From: Candidatus Aminicenantota bacterium
GTDB taxonomy: Bacteria > Acidobacteriota > Aminicenantia > Aminicenantales > Aminicenantaceae
Assembly: GCA_016926925.1 (NCBI GenBank)
Contig: JAFGNQ010000137.1
Span: forward strand, 1-7,663
Length of the DNA stretch: 7,663 nt
Reading direction: 5' to 3'
Shown: piece by piece, positions 1 through 7,663 of the stretch
Position numbering within the stretch: the first letter of the stretch is position 1
Layout of the letters: each line of letters begins with the position of its first letter
Made by a program: the position numbers and the translations under genes
The notes under the pieces: generated by a model
Seen by the model: only the letters and a program-made list of their open reading frames with translations
What the model was told of the DNA's origin: nothing
The model's database searches: none

Positions 1-2337
1 GATCGGCTCCAGATCGCCGTGCTTGAAGTTTGCCCCTCCGCCGCTGTTGAAGTGACACAGACCGCAGTTGTAACGACTGGGACGGCCCACATGTGCTGCC
101 ACTTCAGCGAGATTCACATCTTCCTGAGGCATTCCTCCCTTGCCTTTCTTGTAGGTGTGCGTTGTGTCGTGGCAGACCAGACAGTCGATTTTATTGACAT
201 CGGAGAAATCGAATACGTTTTCGCTCCATCCATACCCGATGTGGCACTGGGCGCAGTAGGCATCATCGGCACCCATAGCAAGAGAACAATTGTTGAATAC
301 AGTCTTCCTTCCCAGGTTTACATCATGCTCATGTCCGATGATTACCGGAGACTGACCCTGCCAGGTCCAATGAGCAGAATCCAGGACATCCTGACCGACG
401 CGCGGGTGACAGGAAAGGCAGCGTGCGGTTACTTGACTTATATCCGCATTTGGAGGAAGTCCGACCAGTTCCCTGTGATCGGGTGTGTAAGAATAATGAC
501 ATGAAAGACAGTCGACGGGAGCTTTCTGTTTATCGGGCTGAGCTTCATGACATTCGATGCACTGCTGGTGATATGCTCCTTTAAGCCCCAGGCGGTTCAG
601 GTCATCGGCTTCTCCAGGCAGCCAGTGGCAGGTCGAACATTTCTGTGTGTAAATGTCCTCCATGTCGTGGCAGGAAGCGCATGCGGCATTGGCGATTCTG
701 ATGTCGGATTCCAGATGGAATTCCTTGACATCCAGGCCAATCCTGTCTTCTTCATCCACACTGAAGCGGTGATGGCAGATGCCGCAGTTTCCATCCGTGG
801 CCACATCGTGCGTGCGGTGCGTGAAACGGACAGGTTCGTAAAAGTCCGTAGTCATGTTCAGGATTTCGTTGTCCAGCATGTATAGGTTGGAATATCCCTC
901 CGGCCTAAAAAGATGCGGAGAAGGAGACGGTAAGTCAGGGGCCTTTTTCACCGGAACGACTTTCTTGGCCCAATTGAACGCTGAGATCGTGCCTGCCAGC
1001 GCTTCCCTGTGGACAAATGTGTAAAAAAGCACGAAGACCAGCAGCACGGCAACAGCGACAACCCGTATGATTCGAACCCAGCCTGCAGACAGGGAATTCT
1101 TCAGCTCGTTTTGTTCTTGCCGGTAGCGGACGGAACATTCCCCGCAGTCGCATCGTTCCAAAACAGGGAAAAAAGTAACCACGACACGGTAAAGAAACAT
1201 GAGCGTGGAGACCATGCCAATCGTAAAGAATAACTCCCCGATAGAGGGAAAGTACTTGCTCGAGGAGAAGGGAGGATCGTAGGCAACCAGGTAGACGTTA
1301 ATCCGGTTGAGCACCAGACCGAAGATCACCAGCAGAGAAGAAAAGAGAAGCAGTCCCCGCGACCTTCGGACCGTGCGTCTGGTAAACAGAAAGAAGGGAA
1401 GGAGAATTCCGGCCACGATTTCTATAAAAAAGGCGCTTGTATAGACGGGATTGCCGAAAAAATCGATACTGCGGAAGCGCACCAGAAGATCTCCGAACTT
1501 CAGCAGTCCATACAGACCGATGAACCAGGGAACAATCTTGGCTATATTTTCCAGAAGGTGCATCTCGGAGTTTCGCCCGTAGACTTTGCTGGAAATGAGG
1601 GATTCGAAGATAACCATAGGAAATCCCACCATGACGGCCGACATAAGGAACAACAGCGGAAGCATCGGAGTATACCACAGGGAATGGATTTTAGTCGGGG
1701 CGATCAGGATGATGGTTCCCAACGATGACTGGTGCATAAATGAAAGAACCACACCGGCGATGATGAAGATCGGCAGCACGATCTTAACTGTCCGATGGAT
1801 AATCAGAAGAGGCTTTTCCAGATGCGGCAGAATACGGGATCCGATTTTGTTCTGGTCGACTCGCTCTTTCAGCCCTTCAAGAAATGAAGGCGACATCTCA
1901 ATAGTGAGAACGGTCAGGTAGGCCATGACACACATAGCAACTTCGAACAGCCCCGAATTTCCTTGCCAGTTGAAAAGCGGACGCCAGATATTCCAGTAAC
2001 GACCGAGATCGAACATGAGCCCGACCGCCACCATGGCATAGCCCAGCCAGGCGGTAAGGATGGCTGGGCGCAGGAGCGGTTTGAATTTGTGTTTACCGAA
2101 TATCTCCACAAAAGCGGCTGTAGTGAAGCCGCCGGCAGCCAAGGCAACACCGCAGGCCACGTCGATGGCAATCCATATTCCCCAGGGAAAGAAGTTGTCC
2201 AAATTGGTGACTGCTCCCAAACCGGCGAACATCCGGGTCAGGCCAAAGGAAAATCCGATGCCCATCAATGCCAAAAGTATATAAGTTCCAGGAGTGAAGA
2301 GCGGCCTTCGGATGCGTTCCGAGTTGTGGCTATTCAT
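1..2337 (-). CDS. NrfD/HybB-type membrane protein fused to OTR-like multiheme cytochrome c (3' partial)
   Basis: I translated the minus strand from the ATG at 2337 to base 1 and found 779 sense codons without a stop, so the C-terminus lies outside the window. Residues 1-393 form about ten membrane helices (near 18-39, 52-76, 89-110, 129-148, 184-202, 221-245, 266-285, 301-319, 326-347, 366-390), with the W-G-I-W-I-A-I-D...AAGGF signature of HybB/HmcC/DsrP-type NrfD proteins, which exchange electrons with menaquinone. A linker carrying C396-x-C398-xx-C401 and an eleventh helix (about 422-442) follow. The rest is periplasmic by prediction and holds CxxCH heme motifs starting at residues 518, 553, 567, 593, 610, 640, 695, 719 and 758. 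From about 636 the motifs CLSCH, HWTW, CHIGYGW, CLVCHDTT-x-TYKK, NCGLCHF and KHGDLE match the octaheme tetrathionate reductase (OTR) family. Shewanella OTR reduces tetrathionate, nitrite and hydroxylamine in vitro. The substrate here is unknown. If the OTR part is complete, about four further hemes lie beyond base 1. The gene is coupled to the upstream FeS gene. Confidence 0.9.
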   Translation of the reverse strand, partial: MNSHNSERIRRPLFTPGTYILLALMGIGFSFGLTRMFAGLGAVTNLDNFFPWGIWIAIDVACGVALAAGGFTTAAFVEIFGKHKFKPLLRPAILTAWLGYAMVAVGLMFDLGRYWNIWRPLFNWQGNSGLFEVAMCVMAYLTVLTIEMSPSFLEGLKERVDQNKIGSRILPHLEKPLLIIHRTVKIVLPIFIIAGVVLSFMHQSSLGTIILIAPTKIHSLWYTPMLPLLFLMSAVMVGFPMVIFESLISSKVYGRNSEMHLLENIAKIVPWFIGLYGLLKFGDLLVRFRSIDFFGNPVYTSAFFIEIVAGILLPFFLFTRRTVRRSRGLLLFSSLLVIFGLVLNRINVYLVAYDPPFSSSKYFPSIGELFFTIGMVSTLMFLYRVVVTFFPVLERCDCGECSVRYRQEQNELKNSLSAGWVRIIRVVAVAVLLVFVLFYTFVHREALAGTISAFNWAKKVVPVKKAPDLPSPSPHLFRPEGYSNLYMLDNEILNMTTDFYEPVRFTHRTHDVATDGNCGICHHRFSVDEEDRIGLDVKEFHLESDIRIANAACASCHDMEDIYTQKCSTCHWLPGEADDLNRLGLKGAYHQQCIECHEAQPDKQKAPVDCLSCHYSYTPDHRELVGLPPNADISQVTARCLSCHPRVGQDVLDSAHWTWQGQSPVIIGHEHDVNLGRKTVFNNCSLAMGADDAYCAQCHIGYGWSENVFDFSDVNKIDCLVCHDTTHTYKKGKGGMPQEDVNLAEVAAHVGRPSRYNCGLCHFNSGGGANFKHGDLEPI

Positions 2338-3250
2338 TTTTATCTCCTTCTGCTTTCGAATTTCGGTTGTTGCGCCACATGATCGCACCCAGAGCTCCGT
2401 AGATGATCATCGGGATGGCTCCGAATTTGAATATCGTGTGCTGAATATTCTCCGTGAGGCGAGGTGGAGCGTTAGCCGGCAGCTTGAGCAGATCGATCTC
2501 TGCCGGAGACCTTCCTGTGATGTAAAGCCATGATGTTCCTCCGACCTCGTTTTCCCCATATATTCGATCGACATAGCGATCCGGCCGTTTGCGGATCCGA
2601 TCCCGGGCTAAAGAAAGCAGATCTTTTCGCTTGCCGAACAAAATTGCCTCTGTGGGACAGGCTTTGGCACAGGCCGGGTCGGTCCCGATCCCCTGGCGGT
2701 AATCCGTGCAGAATTCGCACTTCCTAACCAGAGGAGTGAGTGCATCGTCATATTCATAGGCCGGAATCTGAAAGGGGCAAGCCACCATGCAGTAGCGGCA
2801 GCCCAGGCAGATATCTGGATTATAAACCACAGCCCCGCACTGGCTGGTTGTCAGAGCCCCAACGATACAAGCGGAAACACATGATGGGTCCAAACAGTGC
2901 ATGCACTGGACCTTGGTGTACGTGTTGATACGATGGGGCTGATCCGGAGAAGGACGCCCGGAATATTCATTGACGACCGTAAAGGCCTTGTCTGTGGGAC
3001 GGCGCATGTCACGAAACACACTCTTGTCAGAAAATGGAAGTTCCGGTTTTGGGAGTCCGTTTTTGAGATTGCAGGCTTGTTCACACTGCCGACATCCTAT
3101 ACACAAAGTCGTATCCACCAAACAGCCTACATGCGTCTCATCCTTAATCGGAATATGGTTCTTAGCTTGAGCTTTTTTCTTAGAAAGCGCAAAAAATCCT
3201 GTGCCTGTAGCTATAGTGTGCTTCAGGAATCCTCTTCGAGAAAATTTCAT
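2330..3250 (-). CDS. Tat-exported, membrane-anchored 4x[4Fe-4S] ferredoxin-like redox subunit (HybA/HmcB/DsrO type)
   Basis: This 306-residue protein is the electron-transfer partner expected for an NrfD/HybB-type membrane protein. It begins with a twin-arginine signal (S4-R5-R6-G7-F8-L9-K10, then a short hydrophobic stretch, A27-Q28-A29), so it is exported folded with its clusters to the periplasm. Four cysteine groups follow the usual pattern of this family: C50/C53/C56/C60, C116/C119/C124/C128, C148/C151/C154/C158 and C178/C181/C194/C198. Cys ligands are swapped between groups in known relatives, giving four [4Fe-4S] clusters. A C-terminal helix (about 273-292) with a charged tail anchors it, as in HybA. 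The start is supported by GAGGAG about eight bases upstream. It is the first gene of the operon and overlaps the NrfD-cytochrome fusion by 8 bases. No molybdopterin or hydrogenase subunit lies in the window, which leaves the fused cytochrome as the likely partner. DsrO, PsrB or NrfC could be equally close relatives. Confidence 0.92.
   Translation of the reverse strand: MKFSRRGFLKHTIATGTGFFALSKKKAQAKNHIPIKDETHVGCLVDTTLCIGCRQCEQACNLKNGLPKPELPFSDKSVFRDMRRPTDKAFTVVNEYSGRPSPDQPHRINTYTKVQCMHCLDPSCVSACIVGALTTSQCGAVVYNPDICLGCRYCMVACPFQIPAYEYDDALTPLVRKCEFCTDYRQGIGTDPACAKACPTEAILFGKRKDLLSLARDRIRKRPDRYVDRIYGENEVGGTSWLYITGRSPAEIDLLKLPANAPPRLTENIQHTIFKFGAIPMIIYGALGAIMWRNNRNSKAEGDKNE
2338..2349 (-). promoter_or_regulatory. 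Ribosome binding site of the NrfD-cytochrome fusion gene
   Basis: On the minus strand AAGGAG (2349-2344) sits six bases before the ATG at 2337. It lies inside the last codons of the upstream FeS gene, whose TAG stop (2332-2330) falls within ATGAATAG. This fixes the start of the fusion gene and implies translational coupling, so the two subunits are probably made in matched amounts. Confidence 0.85.
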
Positions 3251-3513: not shown

Positions 3514-5310
3514 TCACTTGTCTTCTGTCTTCAGCACCGCCGCGAAGGCGCTTTGGGGGATCATAACCGAGCCCACCATCTTCATCCTCTTTTTGCCCTT
3601 TTTCTGTTTTTTGAGGAGCTTCTGTTTGCGAGTGACGTCTCCACCGTAGAGCTTGGCGGTGACATCTTTTCTATAGGGAGAAATCGTGGATCTCGAGATG
3701 ATGTTGCCTCCGATTGCACCCTGGATGGCGATTTTGAATTGATGCCGTGGAATCTCATCCTTGAGCCGGTCGCAGATCCTGACCCCCCATTCCCTGGCTT
3801 TATCACGGTGAACGATGAGGGATAGGGCATCGACCCTTTCCCCATTGACGAGGATGTCCAGGCGGACCAGGTCGCTCTCTCTGTAATCGGACAATTCATA
3901 GTCCAAGGATCCGTATCCTTGGGTGATGGTTTTGAGCGTATCGTAAAAATCGTAGATCGCTTCTGCCAGCGGCATTTCGATTCTGAGTTCGATGCGCCCT
4001 GGTGTGGGATAGCTCGAGCGCGGATTGCTCCCTCTTCGAGACAAACAGAGTTTCATGACCACTCCCATGTATTTTTCCGGAAAGAGCAGGGTGGCTTTGA
4101 TGTAAGGTTCTGCAGTGGCCTGAATCTGGGCGGGATCGGGATAATACTGGGGGTTGTCGATTGTCAAGGTCTCGCTGTTTTTAAGGATGAACCGGTACTC
4201 AACGCTGGGAACGGTCATCACGATCGACGCACCATATTCCCTTTCCAACCGCTGCTGGAATATCTCGAGGTGCAGAAGCCCCAGAAAACCGCACCGGAAT
4301 CCCTGACCCAGGGCTGCGGAGGAGTCTTTTTGATAGGTCAAAGAGGCGTCATTGAGTTCATACTTTTCCAGGCTCTCCCGCAGGGACTGGTATTCATCCG
4401 AGGCCATGGGATAGATTGAAGAAAAGACTACCGGTTTGGCCGCTTTGAACCCGCCTATGGGATTCGCGGTGGGATTCGAATCCAGAGTGATGGTGTCCCC
4501 TATCCGCGTGTCTCCCAATTTTTTTATTCCCGCTGTGATGTACCCGACTTCGCCGGCCGAGAGACTGGATTTCGGTTTTCTATGGATCTTGAACAGGCCG
4601 ACTTCCTCCACTTTGTAGGTGGCTCCATTGGACATAAGCCGGATGAGATCACCGTGCCCGACACATCCCTCAAAGACACGGCAGGCGACAATGGTTCCCC
4701 GAAACGGATCGTACTGCGCATCAAAAATATGGGCTTTTAGCGGGGCATCCGGGCTGCCGGTGGGAGGAGGAACGAATTTGACGATGGCTTCGAAGACCCT
4801 TTCAATTCCTTTCCCCTCTTTGGCGGAACACAGGATGGCCGTTTCCGAATCCAATCCCAGCTCGTTTTCGATCTGCTCTTTGGTCATCTCGATATCTGCG
4901 GATATGAGGTCGATTTTATTTATGACAGGAACGATGACGAGGTCGTGCTCCATGGCCATGTAGAGATTGGCAACGGTCTGGGCTTCCACGCCTTGAGAAG
5001 CATCCACCACCAGGAGCACTCCTTCACAGGAGGCCAACGCACGGGAGACTTCATAGGAAAAATCCACATGACCGGGAGTATCGATCAGGTTGAGTTCATA
5101 TTCATTCCCGATTTTGTCCCTGTAAGGGAGTGTGACCGTCTGGCTCTTGATGGTGATCCCCCGTTCTCTCTCGAGGTCCATGGTGTCGAGGATCTGGTCA
5201 CGGAACTCTCTTGGGGAAACCAGACCGACGGCCTGAATGAGCCTGTCCGCCAGCGTGGATTTGCCGTGGTCGATATGAGCGATGATGCTGAAGTTTCTGA
5301 TATTGTCCAT
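3514..5310 (-). CDS. lepA: Elongation factor 4 (LepA), ribosomal translocation/initiation GTPase
   Basis: This is a 598-residue translational GTPase, the normal length for LepA/EF4, which binds the ribosome and affects translocation and initiation. The G-domain motifs are intact: G1 A11-H-I-D-H-G-K-S-T19, G2 R50-G-I-T53, G3 D77-T-P-G-H81 (H81 being the catalytic histidine), G4 N131-K-I-D134 and G5 S162-A-K164. EF-G-like domains II, III and V follow, then the LepA-specific C-terminal domain with its conserved YGGD, RK and KKGKKRMK tract and the closing region around P-Q-S-A-F. An in-frame TTG at 5316 would add two residues, but the ATG at 5310 gives the family's usual N-terminus (M-D-N-I-R-N-F-S-I-I-A-H), so I prefer it. 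There is no recognisable Shine-Dalgarno sequence before either start. lepB, a common neighbour elsewhere, is not adjacent. The gene is divergent from the porin gene. Function is probably housekeeping and unrelated to the redox operon downstream. Confidence 0.97.
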   Translation of the reverse strand: MDNIRNFSIIAHIDHGKSTLADRLIQAVGLVSPREFRDQILDTMDLERERGITIKSQTVTLPYRDKIGNEYELNLIDTPGHVDFSYEVSRALASCEGVLLVVDASQGVEAQTVANLYMAMEHDLVIVPVINKIDLISADIEMTKEQIENELGLDSETAILCSAKEGKGIERVFEAIVKFVPPPTGSPDAPLKAHIFDAQYDPFRGTIVACRVFEGCVGHGDLIRLMSNGATYKVEEVGLFKIHRKPKSSLSAGEVGYITAGIKKLGDTRIGDTITLDSNPTANPIGGFKAAKPVVFSSIYPMASDEYQSLRESLEKYELNDASLTYQKDSSAALGQGFRCGFLGLLHLEIFQQRLEREYGASIVMTVPSVEYRFILKNSETLTIDNPQYYPDPAQIQATAEPYIKATLLFPEKYMGVVMKLCLSRRGSNPRSSYPTPGRIELRIEMPLAEAIYDFYDTLKTITQGYGSLDYELSDYRESDLVRLDILVNGERVDALSLIVHRDKAREWGVRICDRLKDEIPRHQFKIAIQGAIGGNIISRSTISPYRKDVTAKLYGGDVTRKQKLLKKQKKGKKRMKMVGSVMIPQSAFAAVLKTEDK

Positions 5311-5318
5311 GAACAACT

Positions 5319-5391: not shown

Positions 5392-5436
5392 GCTATGCCC
5401 TTTTTTATTCACCAAAACGCTCACAGTCTTAGTTTG

Positions 5437-5451
5437 AAAGGAGAACGATAT
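5437..5451 (+). promoter_or_regulatory. Ribosome binding site deciding the porin start
   Basis: AAAGGAG (5437-5443) lies eight bases before the ATG at 5452. It selects this start over the in-frame ATG at 5395, which lacks such a site and would place 19 polar residues before the signal peptide. Confidence 0.85.
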
Positions 5452-6546
5452 ATGAGGAAATTACTACCTATCTTAGTCGCGGCAGGCTGTCTTCTCTGTT
5501 TCACAGCAGACGCTCGAGCAGCAAAGATCAAAATTTCAGATACGGCTTTTCTCGACATCCACGGCTACATGCAGCACTGGCTGCATATGCCACTGGATCA
5601 GGGGCCCAGTATCAAGACGGATTTCTACTTAAGGCGTGTCAGACTTCTGTTTACCGGACAGATAGCCCCGAATGTCAACTTTTTTATCGGAACTCTGAAC
5701 TCAGATATGGGAAAAAACGGAGACATGAGTTCGCGCACTTTGATCGCGGATGCCTGGATGGAATTTGTCATTTCCGATTATTTGACTATCAATGCCGGTT
5801 TGTTGAAACTTCCGTTTTCAAGACACATGCAACAAACAGGTGGAAAGCTGCATGGGCTTGACTTCCATGGCTCCTATCTAATGAGATATGGGGGAATAGG
5901 CCACAGGGATATGGGAATTATGGCAAGAGGATTGCTATTAAACAATAAAATAGATTATCGTATCGCCATTCTGGACGGCAAAGAGTATGCCCCCGGTAAT
6001 TCCAATGCAACACCACCGGTGGCGGATACAAATAAAAACGACAGCCTGCGCCTTGTCGGCCGTGCTGCCTACAATGTTTTTGATTCAGAGCCCGGTTATT
6101 TCTGGGCAGGCACATACCTCGGCACAAAGAAAATTCTCTCTTTCGGCTTAAGTTTTGACATCCAGTCGGGTGTGGGCGGAGAGAATGGAAATGATCTCTA
6201 CTCTGCCATTGCTGTGGATGCTTTCGCAGACATTCCCATAGGGAAAAATGGGATCGTAAGCACACTGAACTTTTACAGTTTCGGAGCCGGCGGCGCTGTT
6301 CCTGAAGGCCACGGTCTCTGGGCTGACTTCGGATACCGAATCGATAAAATCGAACCTCTTATTGCCTTTGAATGGTATTCTCCAAGTCAAGGCGATGCCG
6401 GAAAGCGTCAAGCAATTCTGGCCGGCTTGAACTGGTGGATCCATGGACATAATGTCAACATCAAGTTTCAGTTCGGAACCGAAAACTTGAACGGAGTTGA
6501 TAAGTGGACAAATACGGCCATCGTTCAGGGCCAACTTTTGTTCTAA
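5452..6546 (+). CDS. Outer-membrane porin, OprO/OprP (phosphate-selective porin) family-like
   Basis: The product is 364 residues from the ATG at 5452. It has a Sec signal peptide: M-R-K, then a hydrophobic core, then A-D-A-R-A, with cleavage probably near residue 23 or 24. The mature protein of about 340 residues shows the alternating polar/aromatic pattern of beta-strands and ends in phenylalanine (V-Q-G-Q-L-L-F), the typical C-terminal signal for the outer-membrane assembly machinery. Early segments (F-Y-L-R-R-V-R-L-L-F-T-G, then A-D-A-W-M-E-F and I-N-A-G-L-L-K-L-P-F-S) resemble the N-terminal strands of OprO/OprP-type porins. It probably forms a 16-strand-type channel for small anions or other solutes. 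The substrate cannot be read from the sequence. It has its own promoter and ribosome binding site, lies divergent to lepA and is followed by an AT-rich gap without a clear terminator. A functional link to the cytochrome system is possible but unsupported here. Confidence 0.8.
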   Translation: MRKLLPILVAAGCLLCFTADARAAKIKISDTAFLDIHGYMQHWLHMPLDQGPSIKTDFYLRRVRLLFTGQIAPNVNFFIGTLNSDMGKNGDMSSRTLIADAWMEFVISDYLTINAGLLKLPFSRHMQQTGGKLHGLDFHGSYLMRYGGIGHRDMGIMARGLLLNNKIDYRIAILDGKEYAPGNSNATPPVADTNKNDSLRLVGRAAYNVFDSEPGYFWAGTYLGTKKILSFGLSFDIQSGVGGENGNDLYSAIAVDAFADIPIGKNGIVSTLNFYSFGAGGAVPEGHGLWADFGYRIDKIEPLIAFEWYSPSQGDAGKRQAILAGLNWWIHGHNVNIKFQFGTENLNGVDKWTNTAIVQGQLLF

Positions 6547-6880: not shown

Positions 6881-7663
6881 TTAATCATTAGAATCGATTT
6901 TTTCGAGCAATGTCAGCCGAATTGCTAAAAAATCGAACCTTCCCCGCAAAAGGATATCCTTGATTTCTCCTCTTCCGTGGCGGGATCTGAGGTGATAGAT
7001 CCGATCGATCATATTATAACCATCAGGAATTTCGTCATGAATGCCTTGGAGGACAGCCAGGAAACGCACGGAATCGTCCTCCGGGAGGCGGTAGTCCGGA
7101 TACCCCCGAATATCCGCCCCTGGAAGGATGAATCGAAAGATCTCATAGCTCGCAAAGAAATTCGAAGGAAAGCAAACAGTTTGTCCGCTCAATCTGCTGA
7201 GCGTCTCTTCAGAGAACGGCGTTGAAAAAGGTTTGAGAAATAGGCTGAAGGCACAAAACAATCCCAGTACCAATACAGGAAAAATTCGCCGGCCAAGCTT
7301 AATCCTAAAAGAGCCCAACACTCCGAGAATGACGATGAGAAGCAACATGATATATGCGAACGGCGAAAAAAGAGAAGACTTTAGGCTCCTCTCTATACCA
7401 TAGAGGAACCACAATCCAAGTACGGAAAAAATGATCACCAAAACATGACTGGTGCGAAAAGCCCACTTCGATAATTTGTCCCACCTCAAGGCAATCAAAA
7501 CACTGAGGGCTGCACAGGTAGGAAGGATATAGTTTTCCTGCCTCTGCGTTGGAAAGGAATAAATGACAAGGAAACCTAAGATATAAAGCCATAATCTTTT
7601 TTCGTCACCGGACAGGGTTTTGCGTCGCCTGATGAGATCAATGATCAATGCGATCAAAATAAA
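6881..7663 (-). CDS. ArnT/PMT-like membrane glycosyltransferase, C-terminal part (5' partial)
   Basis: The frame is open from the right window edge to the TAA at 6883-6881 (260 visible residues), so the N-terminus with the catalytic aspartates of this family is missing. A TTG near the edge (7657) is not a credible start. The visible part begins with several hydrophobic helices (about 1-11, 24-37, 45-58, 70-88, 96-118 and 125-145). The second helix ends in F-P-T-Q-R-Q-E-N-Y-I-L-P, which resembles the motif before the late helices of GT39/GT83 enzymes (protein mannosyltransferases, ArnT). After about residue 148 a soluble domain follows, expected in the periplasm. Such enzymes move sugars from polyprenyl-phosphate carriers onto lipid A, glycans or proteins. 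The acceptor cannot be told. The gene converges on the porin gene, and its last codons hold a long inverted repeat (6894-6936). A different polyprenyl-sugar transferase or an O-antigen ligase-like protein remains possible. Confidence 0.65.
   Translation of the reverse strand, partial: FILIALIIDLIRRRKTLSGDEKRLWLYILGFLVIYSFPTQRQENYILPTCAALSVLIALRWDKLSKWAFRTSHVLVIIFSVLGLWFLYGIERSLKSSLFSPFAYIMLLLIVILGVLGSFRIKLGRRIFPVLVLGLFCAFSLFLKPFSTPFSEETLSRLSGQTVCFPSNFFASYEIFRFILPGADIRGYPDYRLPEDDSVRFLAVLQGIHDEIPDGYNMIDRIYHLRSRHGRGEIKDILLRGRFDFLAIRLTLLEKIDSND
6894..6936. repeat. 16-bp inverted repeat with 2-base bulge at the end of the glycosyltransferase gene
   Basis: TCGATTTTTT (6894-6903), CG as a bulge, and AGCAAT (6906-6911) pair without mismatch with ATTGCT (6921-6926) and AAAAAATCGA (6927-6936), around a 9-base loop (6912-6920). 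It overlaps the last coding triplets of the glycosyltransferase, stopping about 10 bases before its stop codon. Neither strand has a T-run directly after it, so it is not a classical intrinsic terminator. It may protect the 3' end of the mRNA or shape the end of a plus-strand RNA from the sigma-54 promoter. Confidence 0.6.

Follow-up and report, generated by a model that had tools for sequence, protein, structure and literature searches.

An NrfD-type membrane domain fused to pentaheme and octaheme cytochrome modules: a predicted two-gene, quinone-linked complex in Candidatus Aminicenantota and its relatives

Contig JAFGNQ010000137.1 of a Candidatus Aminicenantota bacterium (assembly GCA_016926925.1) was analysed over a stretch of 7,663 nucleotides, referred to here as the window, and carries at its left edge a gene that joins, in a single chain, an NrfD/HybB-like membrane domain to a pentaheme cytochrome module and, behind it, to the first part of an octaheme tetrathionate reductase (OTR) domain. 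Judged by sequence, this fusion gene and the overlapping gene for an iron-sulfur subunit encode a real, conserved, quinone-linked octaheme complex that holds its membrane and heme parts in one chain and combines two known kinds of protein. With a probability of about 55%, the pair forms an inner-membrane menaquinone oxidoreductase whose octaheme domain reduces a periplasmic sulfur or nitrogen compound. An earlier interpretation of the nucleotide letters alone (the sequence-only reading) had proposed one unbroken frame with ten NrfD/HybB-like helices and at least nine CxxCH motifs, served by a single iron-sulfur subunit, as a menaquinol-linked reductase or electron outlet of an unrecognised type.

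Domain Structure of the Fusion Protein

The fusion gene occupies a single minus-strand frame that begins with an ATG at 2337 and stays open for 779 codons, with zero stops, until the contig breaks off at base 1. The earliest start given by the open reading frame program for this frame is an in-frame GTG at 2388. The coordinates and description of the sequence-only reading were right, with the CxxCH motifs numbering exactly nine, and no stop interrupts the frame between residues 393 and 518, the interval in which that reading had placed the risk of a false join; the fused relatives described below exclude such an error.

The amino-terminal part is an NrfD-type domain. Pfam NrfD/PsrC (PF03916) matches residues 43-348 at 63.4 bits, above the gathering cut-off of 25.8, and ten helices are obtained after merging hydropathy segments, which is the count expected for the HybB/HmcC/QrcD group. 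The top-scoring NCBIfam model is HybB (NF008133) at 330 bits, under its cut-off of 450, and the HmcC equivalog (NF045714) gives 286 bits, under a cut-off of 550. By predicted fold, the membrane domain of the full-length relative P0002 is likewise NrfD. An eleventh hydrophobic helix follows, which would bring the chain to the periplasm.

The remainder of the chain is rich in heme motifs, and shuffling the residues beyond 460 gave nine CxxCH in none of 10000 shuffles, the maximum being four. The two-module layout of the sequence-only reading needs correction here, as a third, c3/HmcA-like pentaheme module stands between the NrfD and OTR parts; in P0002, this module matched HmcA structures. Behind it, the octaheme profile TIGR04315 matches residues 633-777 at 151 bits (cut-off 375), a fragment score for a domain cut by the contig edge, since the contig end breaks off the match at profile position 167 of 440; P0002 reaches 460 bits on the same profile. 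The sequence-only reading was right in placing NrfD and OTR in one chain. Four of the eight OTR-position CxxCH lie inside the window and all four are present, the other positions falling beyond the edge, and the relatives P0001 and P0002 carry all eight. Judged by these two full-length proteins, about 310 residues and five CxxCH are lost from the window. The predicted fold of the octaheme domain is the same as that of OTR.

Table 1. Features of the window (positions on the forward strand; residues are those of the fusion protein)
Feature	Position	Strand	Remarks
Fusion gene, NrfD/HybB-like + pentaheme + octaheme (OTR-like)	1..2337	-	5′ complete, 3′ end lost at contig edge
10-helix NrfD/HybB/HmcC domain, residues 4-394	1156..2328	-	
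Eleventh hydrophobic helix, residues 414-449	991..1098	-	hydropathy; P0002 model has helix 418-459
Pentaheme c3/HmcA-C-terminal-like module, residues 496-620	478..852	-	CxxCH 518, 553, 567, 593, 610
Octaheme tetrathionate reductase domain start, residue 633 onward	1..441	-	CxxCH 640, 695, 719, 758
NNCS, residues 682-685	283..294	-	aligned with OTR 61-64 (NNFC)
Lys772	22..24	-	aligned with OTR Lys153
Ribosome-binding region of fusion gene	2338..2360	-	GGAG shortly 5′ of ATG; inside the end of the iron-sulfur gene
HmcB/HybA-like iron-sulfur subunit gene	2330..3250	-	8-base overlap with fusion gene
lepA	3514..5316		
Porin-like outer-membrane protein	5395..6546	+	
Hydrophobic protein	6881..7663	-	cut by right edge

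The Iron-Sulfur Partner

The product of the overlapping gene carries a twin-arginine translocation motif (SRRGFL), four four-cysteine cluster motifs (Cys 50-60, 116-128, 148-158, and 178-198), a C-terminal hydrophobic segment at 272-292 and a second segment at 124-143 among the cysteine motifs. It scores 313.6 bits against HmcB (NF045715; under the cut-off of 420) and 259.1 bits against HybA (NF008134; just under the cut-off of 263), and the single partner gene of the sequence-only reading is thus found in HmcB/HybA-like form. The window contains no hydrogenase subunit.

The association extends well beyond the window. In the best 80 of 146 related loci, on which all 80-locus counts given here rest, the HybB start could be located in 79, and in 77 of these an iron-sulfur-like gene overlaps the HybB part or ends at most 69 bases away; the remaining two, which show no such gene, start at a contig edge. 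In each of the 77, this gene stands ahead of the HybB part, and the pair constitutes a conserved two-gene unit.

Fused and Split Relatives

Among the database matches listed, 117 of 120 homologues are full-length fusions of the same architecture, at 1055-1103 residues. A search for this domain order beside a HybA-like gene, as suggested by the sequence-only reading, is in this way answered by numerous relatives. Where named, their source annotations read 'octaheme c-type cytochrome' or 'Ni/Fe-hydrogenase cytochrome b subunit'. The 80 loci also include a split arrangement, in which a HybB gene (about 400 residues) is followed by an adjacent cytochrome gene. All eight split cytochromes listed begin with a hydrophobic segment, and a former signal anchor of this kind may survive as helix 11 of the fusion.

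Many Desulfobacterota loci have the two parts as separate adjacent genes, and an assembly or sequencing error that lost a stop between them could mimic a fusion. The chance that the window gene arose in this way is close to nil: the same fusion recurs at nearly constant length in the listed proteins, and 33 fused and 54 split rows are explained by only two changes on a tree of the HybB domain. This explanation is refuted by the fused relatives.

The tree was a quick maximum-likelihood reconstruction from 97 HybB domains and one QrcD, with 17 of the 117 full-length proteins included. Because the branch to the QrcD outgroup is very long, the tree is read as unrooted and as neutral between gain and loss of the fusion. 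The window falls together with Acidobacteriota and Planctomycetota rows in a fused clade of 22 rows (support 100), and the fused rows outside this clade are Desulfobacterota or 'Deltaproteobacteria' rows. Among 199 genomes sampled from the phylum of locus L003 (labelled Acidobacteria), 57 gave some match and six a full fusion, in frames of 1081-1110 residues, at a limit of E 1e-60 and at most three candidates per genome; other genomes carry OTR or HybB parts alone. In plasmid records, 10 of 15 matches, those listed, align with the HybB part only. One metagenome-assembled genome (CSMAG_2559) holds two distinct fusion genes on separate contigs (L001 and L002), as two copies or mixed strains; L002 is the locus of P0002.

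Quinone Site and Proton Path

The QrcD of locus L081 served as the reference for the quinone end, and 15 of 17 positions agree with the published Desulfovibrio vulgaris numbering once this is shifted by 8. For QrcD R358 and E413 no counterpart could be assigned, the L081 protein having Tyr and Arg there under this shift, and no placement was found for QrcC Tyr113 on the iron-sulfur subunit. Mutation has shown D70, Y110, S138, and Y150 of QrcD to be essential (PMC13059093), and all four are kept in the window protein, as D59, Y100, S128, and Y140. Further matches are D120, E142, E157, and H199 (window D110, E132, E147, and H202), and QrcD I67, L140, and E164 are also kept. Differences occur at F63, Y88, N100, and M139, which are W52, E78, R90, and G129 in the window protein. 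The quinone link that the sequence-only reading proposed finds its support in this conservation.

In Qrc, the proton path brings cytoplasmic protons to menaquinone during menaquinone reduction, and a cytoplasmic path has likewise been proposed for Hyb (PMC6303296). It may be that the two-gene complex also works in this direction, with the octaheme domain oxidising a periplasmic compound of low potential (from the sulfide/polysulfide or sulfite class) or accepting electrons from other cytochromes, and with the NrfD domain reducing menaquinone with cytoplasmic protons to conserve energy as Qrc does. We consider such a donor-side role rather unlikely. It would accord with D59, Y100, Y140, E147, and H202 at proton-path positions, with the HmcA-like heme module, and with HybB and HmcC as the best full-length NrfD-type models, which are placed near the quinone reductase QrcD (PMC6303296). 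However, the in vitro activities reported for Shewanella OTR are reductions (cited in PMC4911364), and tetrathionate induces an Acidobacteriota otr (PMC8528874). In a reductase acting on the same path, the protons of quinol would be expected to leave on the inner side, at a cost to the gradient. This would make sense with polysulfide or another low-potential acceptor; with tetrathionate, whose potential is +198 mV (PMC8528874), it would be wasteful. Mainly because the Qrc-type path is kept, we make no commitment on electron direction.

Octaheme Active Site

In OTR of Shewanella oneidensis (TIGR04315, PDB 1sp3), the active heme is presumably the one bound at 74-78, which we take to be surrounded by Cys64, Asn61, and Asp150 and to have as its lysine ligand the residue numbered 153. 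At the corresponding positions, the window protein and its nearest kin (L001, L002, and L004) share NNCS, that is Cys63 and Ser64, together with Ala150 and the lysine. According to this alignment, the window protein has kept the heme motif and the lysine, and its cysteine is shifted. The lysine that ligates the active OTR heme lies outside a CxxCK motif (PMC12285233).

Variation at this site is structured among the fusions. All 17 that have no CxxCH at 74-78 possess Asp61 and no cysteine at 63 or 64; among the other 100, Asp61 occurs in one and 12 have no cysteine at 63/64. One fusion sub-branch is, on this pattern, probably without the active heme. The proteins concerned (P0028, P0031, P0082, P0096, P0103, and 12 more) may have undergone loss of catalysis or use a different cofactor.

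An In-Frame TGA at the Active-Site Position

Of the 80 loci, 47 have a cytochrome frame that halts at a TGA and then runs on in frame into OTR sequence, and one further (48th) frame merely ran off its contig. The TGA aligns with OTR Cys64 in all 47 loci, and the frame behind it spans 423-452 residues in 41. The six shorter ones reach a contig edge (L022, L030, and L061) or an early stop (L035, L040, and L049). In the latter three, the stop lies 43, 129, and 61 residues past the TGA and the contigs continue, which may reflect sequencing error or a broken gene.

Thirteen bases past the TGA, 45 of the 47 loci share the hairpin sequence GCAACGAG[G/T]CTCGTTGC. L005 and L007 instead have GCAACTGGTCCAGGTGC, in which both arms are changed and, by eye, seven of eight facing positions stay paired; the stem is absent from the lowest-energy fold of the L007 stretch. 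When compared with synonymous recodings, the folding energy was in the lowest 5% for only 27 of 47 TGA loci, against 2 of 20 Cys loci (chosen by a motif NNFC, NNYC, NNCS, or NNCT before CxxCH, so that others are missed), and for this reason the hairpin argument rests on shared sequence, not on energy. A tRNA-Sec gene above the Rfam cut-off was found in eight of eight tested TGA genomes, six of ten others, and five of 14 controls. The HybB part is in the same frame in two TGA loci (L005 and L007), the other TGA loci being split, and the distribution of selenocysteine on the HybB tree takes four changes. The record titles of the TGA loci mostly name Desulfobacterales, which are sulfate reducers.

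Judged by these sequences, many relatives seem to encode selenocysteine at the position of this enzyme residue. The window gene has sense codons at the TGA position and contains no selenocysteine codon. TIGR04315 has a table row in a 2026 selenoprotein review, with the source 'GA' and without motif, position or partner (PMC13188914), and the TGA of the 47 loci is probably the one behind that row. Selenocysteine in the octaheme family had accordingly been noted already; the OTR active-site position and the quinone partner are absent from the excerpted text of that review (PMC13188914). The exchange of cysteine and selenocysteine at the OTR active-site position favours catalysis.

Proposed Function

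A function as a reductase of sulfur or nitrogen compounds is likely, as yet unproven. In the preferred reading, menaquinol, as the presumed quinone, would be oxidised at a periplasm-side site of the NrfD domain. Within a putative assembly of the two proteins, electrons would then pass to the HmcB-like subunit with its four iron-sulfur clusters, from there to the pentaheme module and on to the octaheme domain, if clusters and hemes are indeed used in this order. A small sulfur or nitrogen compound, plausibly of the tetrathionate, polysulfide, hydroxylamine or nitrite class, would be reduced in the periplasm at the heme that has a lysine ligand in Shewanella OTR.

Several observations weigh against this proposal. 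The kept cytoplasmic proton path, which in Qrc serves quinone reduction, argues that the complex does not simply oxidise quinol to reduce an acceptor of high potential. In the P0002 structure model, the predicted local distance difference test score (pLDDT) of the pentaheme module is below 50, and the heme path is therefore undrawn. The active site of the window protein is non-canonical, with Cys63/Ser64 and Ala150 where OTR has Cys64 and Asp150. Among the 117 fusions, Cys64 is found in only 81, Lys153 in 104 (Arg in 12 and Leu in one), and CxxCH at 74-78 in 100.

The last of these points bears on whether the complex might be an electron outlet, in which the hemes merely carry menaquinol electrons to periplasmic cytochromes and porin conduits without catalysis of their own. 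The sequence-only reading had allowed for reductase or outlet, and the fusion alone does not decide between them: the selenocysteine/cysteine exchange favours catalysis, and the altered window site and the 17 fusions that have neither the heme motif nor Cys63/64 and that carry Asp61 point the other way. A weakly ExtI-like porin about 2 kb upstream of the iron-sulfur gene would also suit an outlet, but it lies beyond lepA and is encoded on the opposite strand, and of the eight gene families common to at least six of the 80 loci, not one is porin-like (three judged by domains, the rest by eye). Lys153 is kept in the window, and a passive wire would not readily account for the TGA, with its hairpin, that takes the place of Cys64 in 47 loci. 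An outlet seems unlikely.

More tentatively, the reductase proposal could be extended to an undescribed class of quinone-linked heme-thiol/selenol enzymes. In such a class, a cysteine or selenocysteine beside the lysine-held heme would make or break S-S (or S-O) bonds, with one-chain or two-chain wiring to an electrogenic NrfD domain that is reversible with the proton gradient, and one fusion branch would later have lost the active-site heme motif to become an electron carrier or to use another site.

Comparison With Known Systems

OTR is a separate periplasmic protein. The fusion resembles it in the octaheme domain, the predicted fold and Lys153, and CxxCH occurs at its eight places in at least 100 of 117 fusions. 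Unlike OTR, the fusion is joined to a membrane domain, the window protein differs at residues 63/64 and 150 as described, and P0001 and P0002 close with an additional, ninth CxxCH.

Hmc and Nhc of sulfate reducers (HmcA-B-C and NhcA-B-C) contribute the other half of the comparison, through an HmcB-like iron-sulfur subunit, an HmcC-like NrfD protein and c3 hemes like those of the HmcA C-terminus. The Hmc subunits are separate proteins, and neither Hmc nor Nhc is known to have an octaheme domain. Separate subunits are also described for Nhc, in contrast to the fusion (PMC8076601). Hydrogenase-2 (HybA/HybB), compared by profile score, likewise pairs an iron-sulfur subunit with a 10-helix quinone subunit, but the window has no hydrogenase subunit and misses the HybB cut-off. 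CbcL of Geobacter joins a multiheme cytochrome to a membrane quinone module of b-type cytochrome, not NrfD, and the fusion, whose membrane domain is NrfD by profile, is not of the CbcL type. Directly behind the fusion in L006 (10842-13499; contig labelled Planctomycetota) lies an 885-residue frame that combines 19 CxxCH with a membrane domain of the cytochrome b561 type; it is another cytochrome-membrane fusion and CbcL-like in concept.

The nearest published counterpart is a pair in Thermosulfurimonas dismutans (TDIS_1882/1883), in which OTR was proposed to be membrane-linked via a neighbouring multi-helix 'cytochrome b subunit' (PMC4911364). By that published description alone, the pairing is the same, but in two proteins. 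The NrfD-containing complexes tabulated in PMC8076601 have separate catalytic subunits and do not include the fusion, in agreement with the sequence-only reading; its excerpted text never uses 'fused', 'fusion' or 'octaheme'. Otr of marine Acidobacteriota has been treated as periplasmic, and the excerpted text makes no mention of NrfD, HybB, or fusion (PMC8528874). No description of an NrfD-OTR fusion was found in the open-licence literature. The type is to that extent unrecognised, as had been claimed, but it is common in databases and its split version has been described (PMC4911364).

The forward primer for the published tetrathionate-induced otr of Ca. Sulfomarinibacter was unmatched in six genomes of one class. 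Among 396 genomes of the phylum, it gave one match, with no CxxCH frame around it and the reverse primer absent. That genome gave no relative of P0002, and a link between the Ca. Sulfomarinibacter otr and the fusion may still exist.

Neighbouring Genes

The porin-like protein of the window scores 85 bits against ExtI of the selenite/tellurite operon (cut-off 150) and matches Pfam Porin_O_P. The hydrophobic protein at the right edge is without a Pfam or NCBIfam match. Where the window has lepA, the closest relatives instead have a divergent regulator before the operon (L001:2512-2955 and, on the minus strand, L002:2824-3315), which belongs to the Fur family in L002 and looks alike by eye in L001. 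A PAS/sigma-54 activator, classed as such from the domains of one member and Cys-rich close to its N-terminus (L005:5201-6586, minus strand, and relatives), recurs across 39 of 80 loci. It usually lies on the opposite strand, at a median of 2.8 kb upstream of the HybB start, and is a possible operon regulator. No family outside the operon is more widespread in the 80 loci, and it names no substrate.

Significance

OTR has been known since 2004, according to reference lists, and its physiological contribution was still called unclear in 2024 (PMC10949509). The naturally occurring fusion with a quinone module, together with the constant iron-sulfur partner, points directly to the likely electron donor of OTR, and the exchange of cysteine and selenocysteine indicates the reacting residue. 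Together, donor and reacting residue make the purpose of OTR testable in one two-gene construct, and the fusion is a good single-chain structural target for electron transfer from NrfD to heme.
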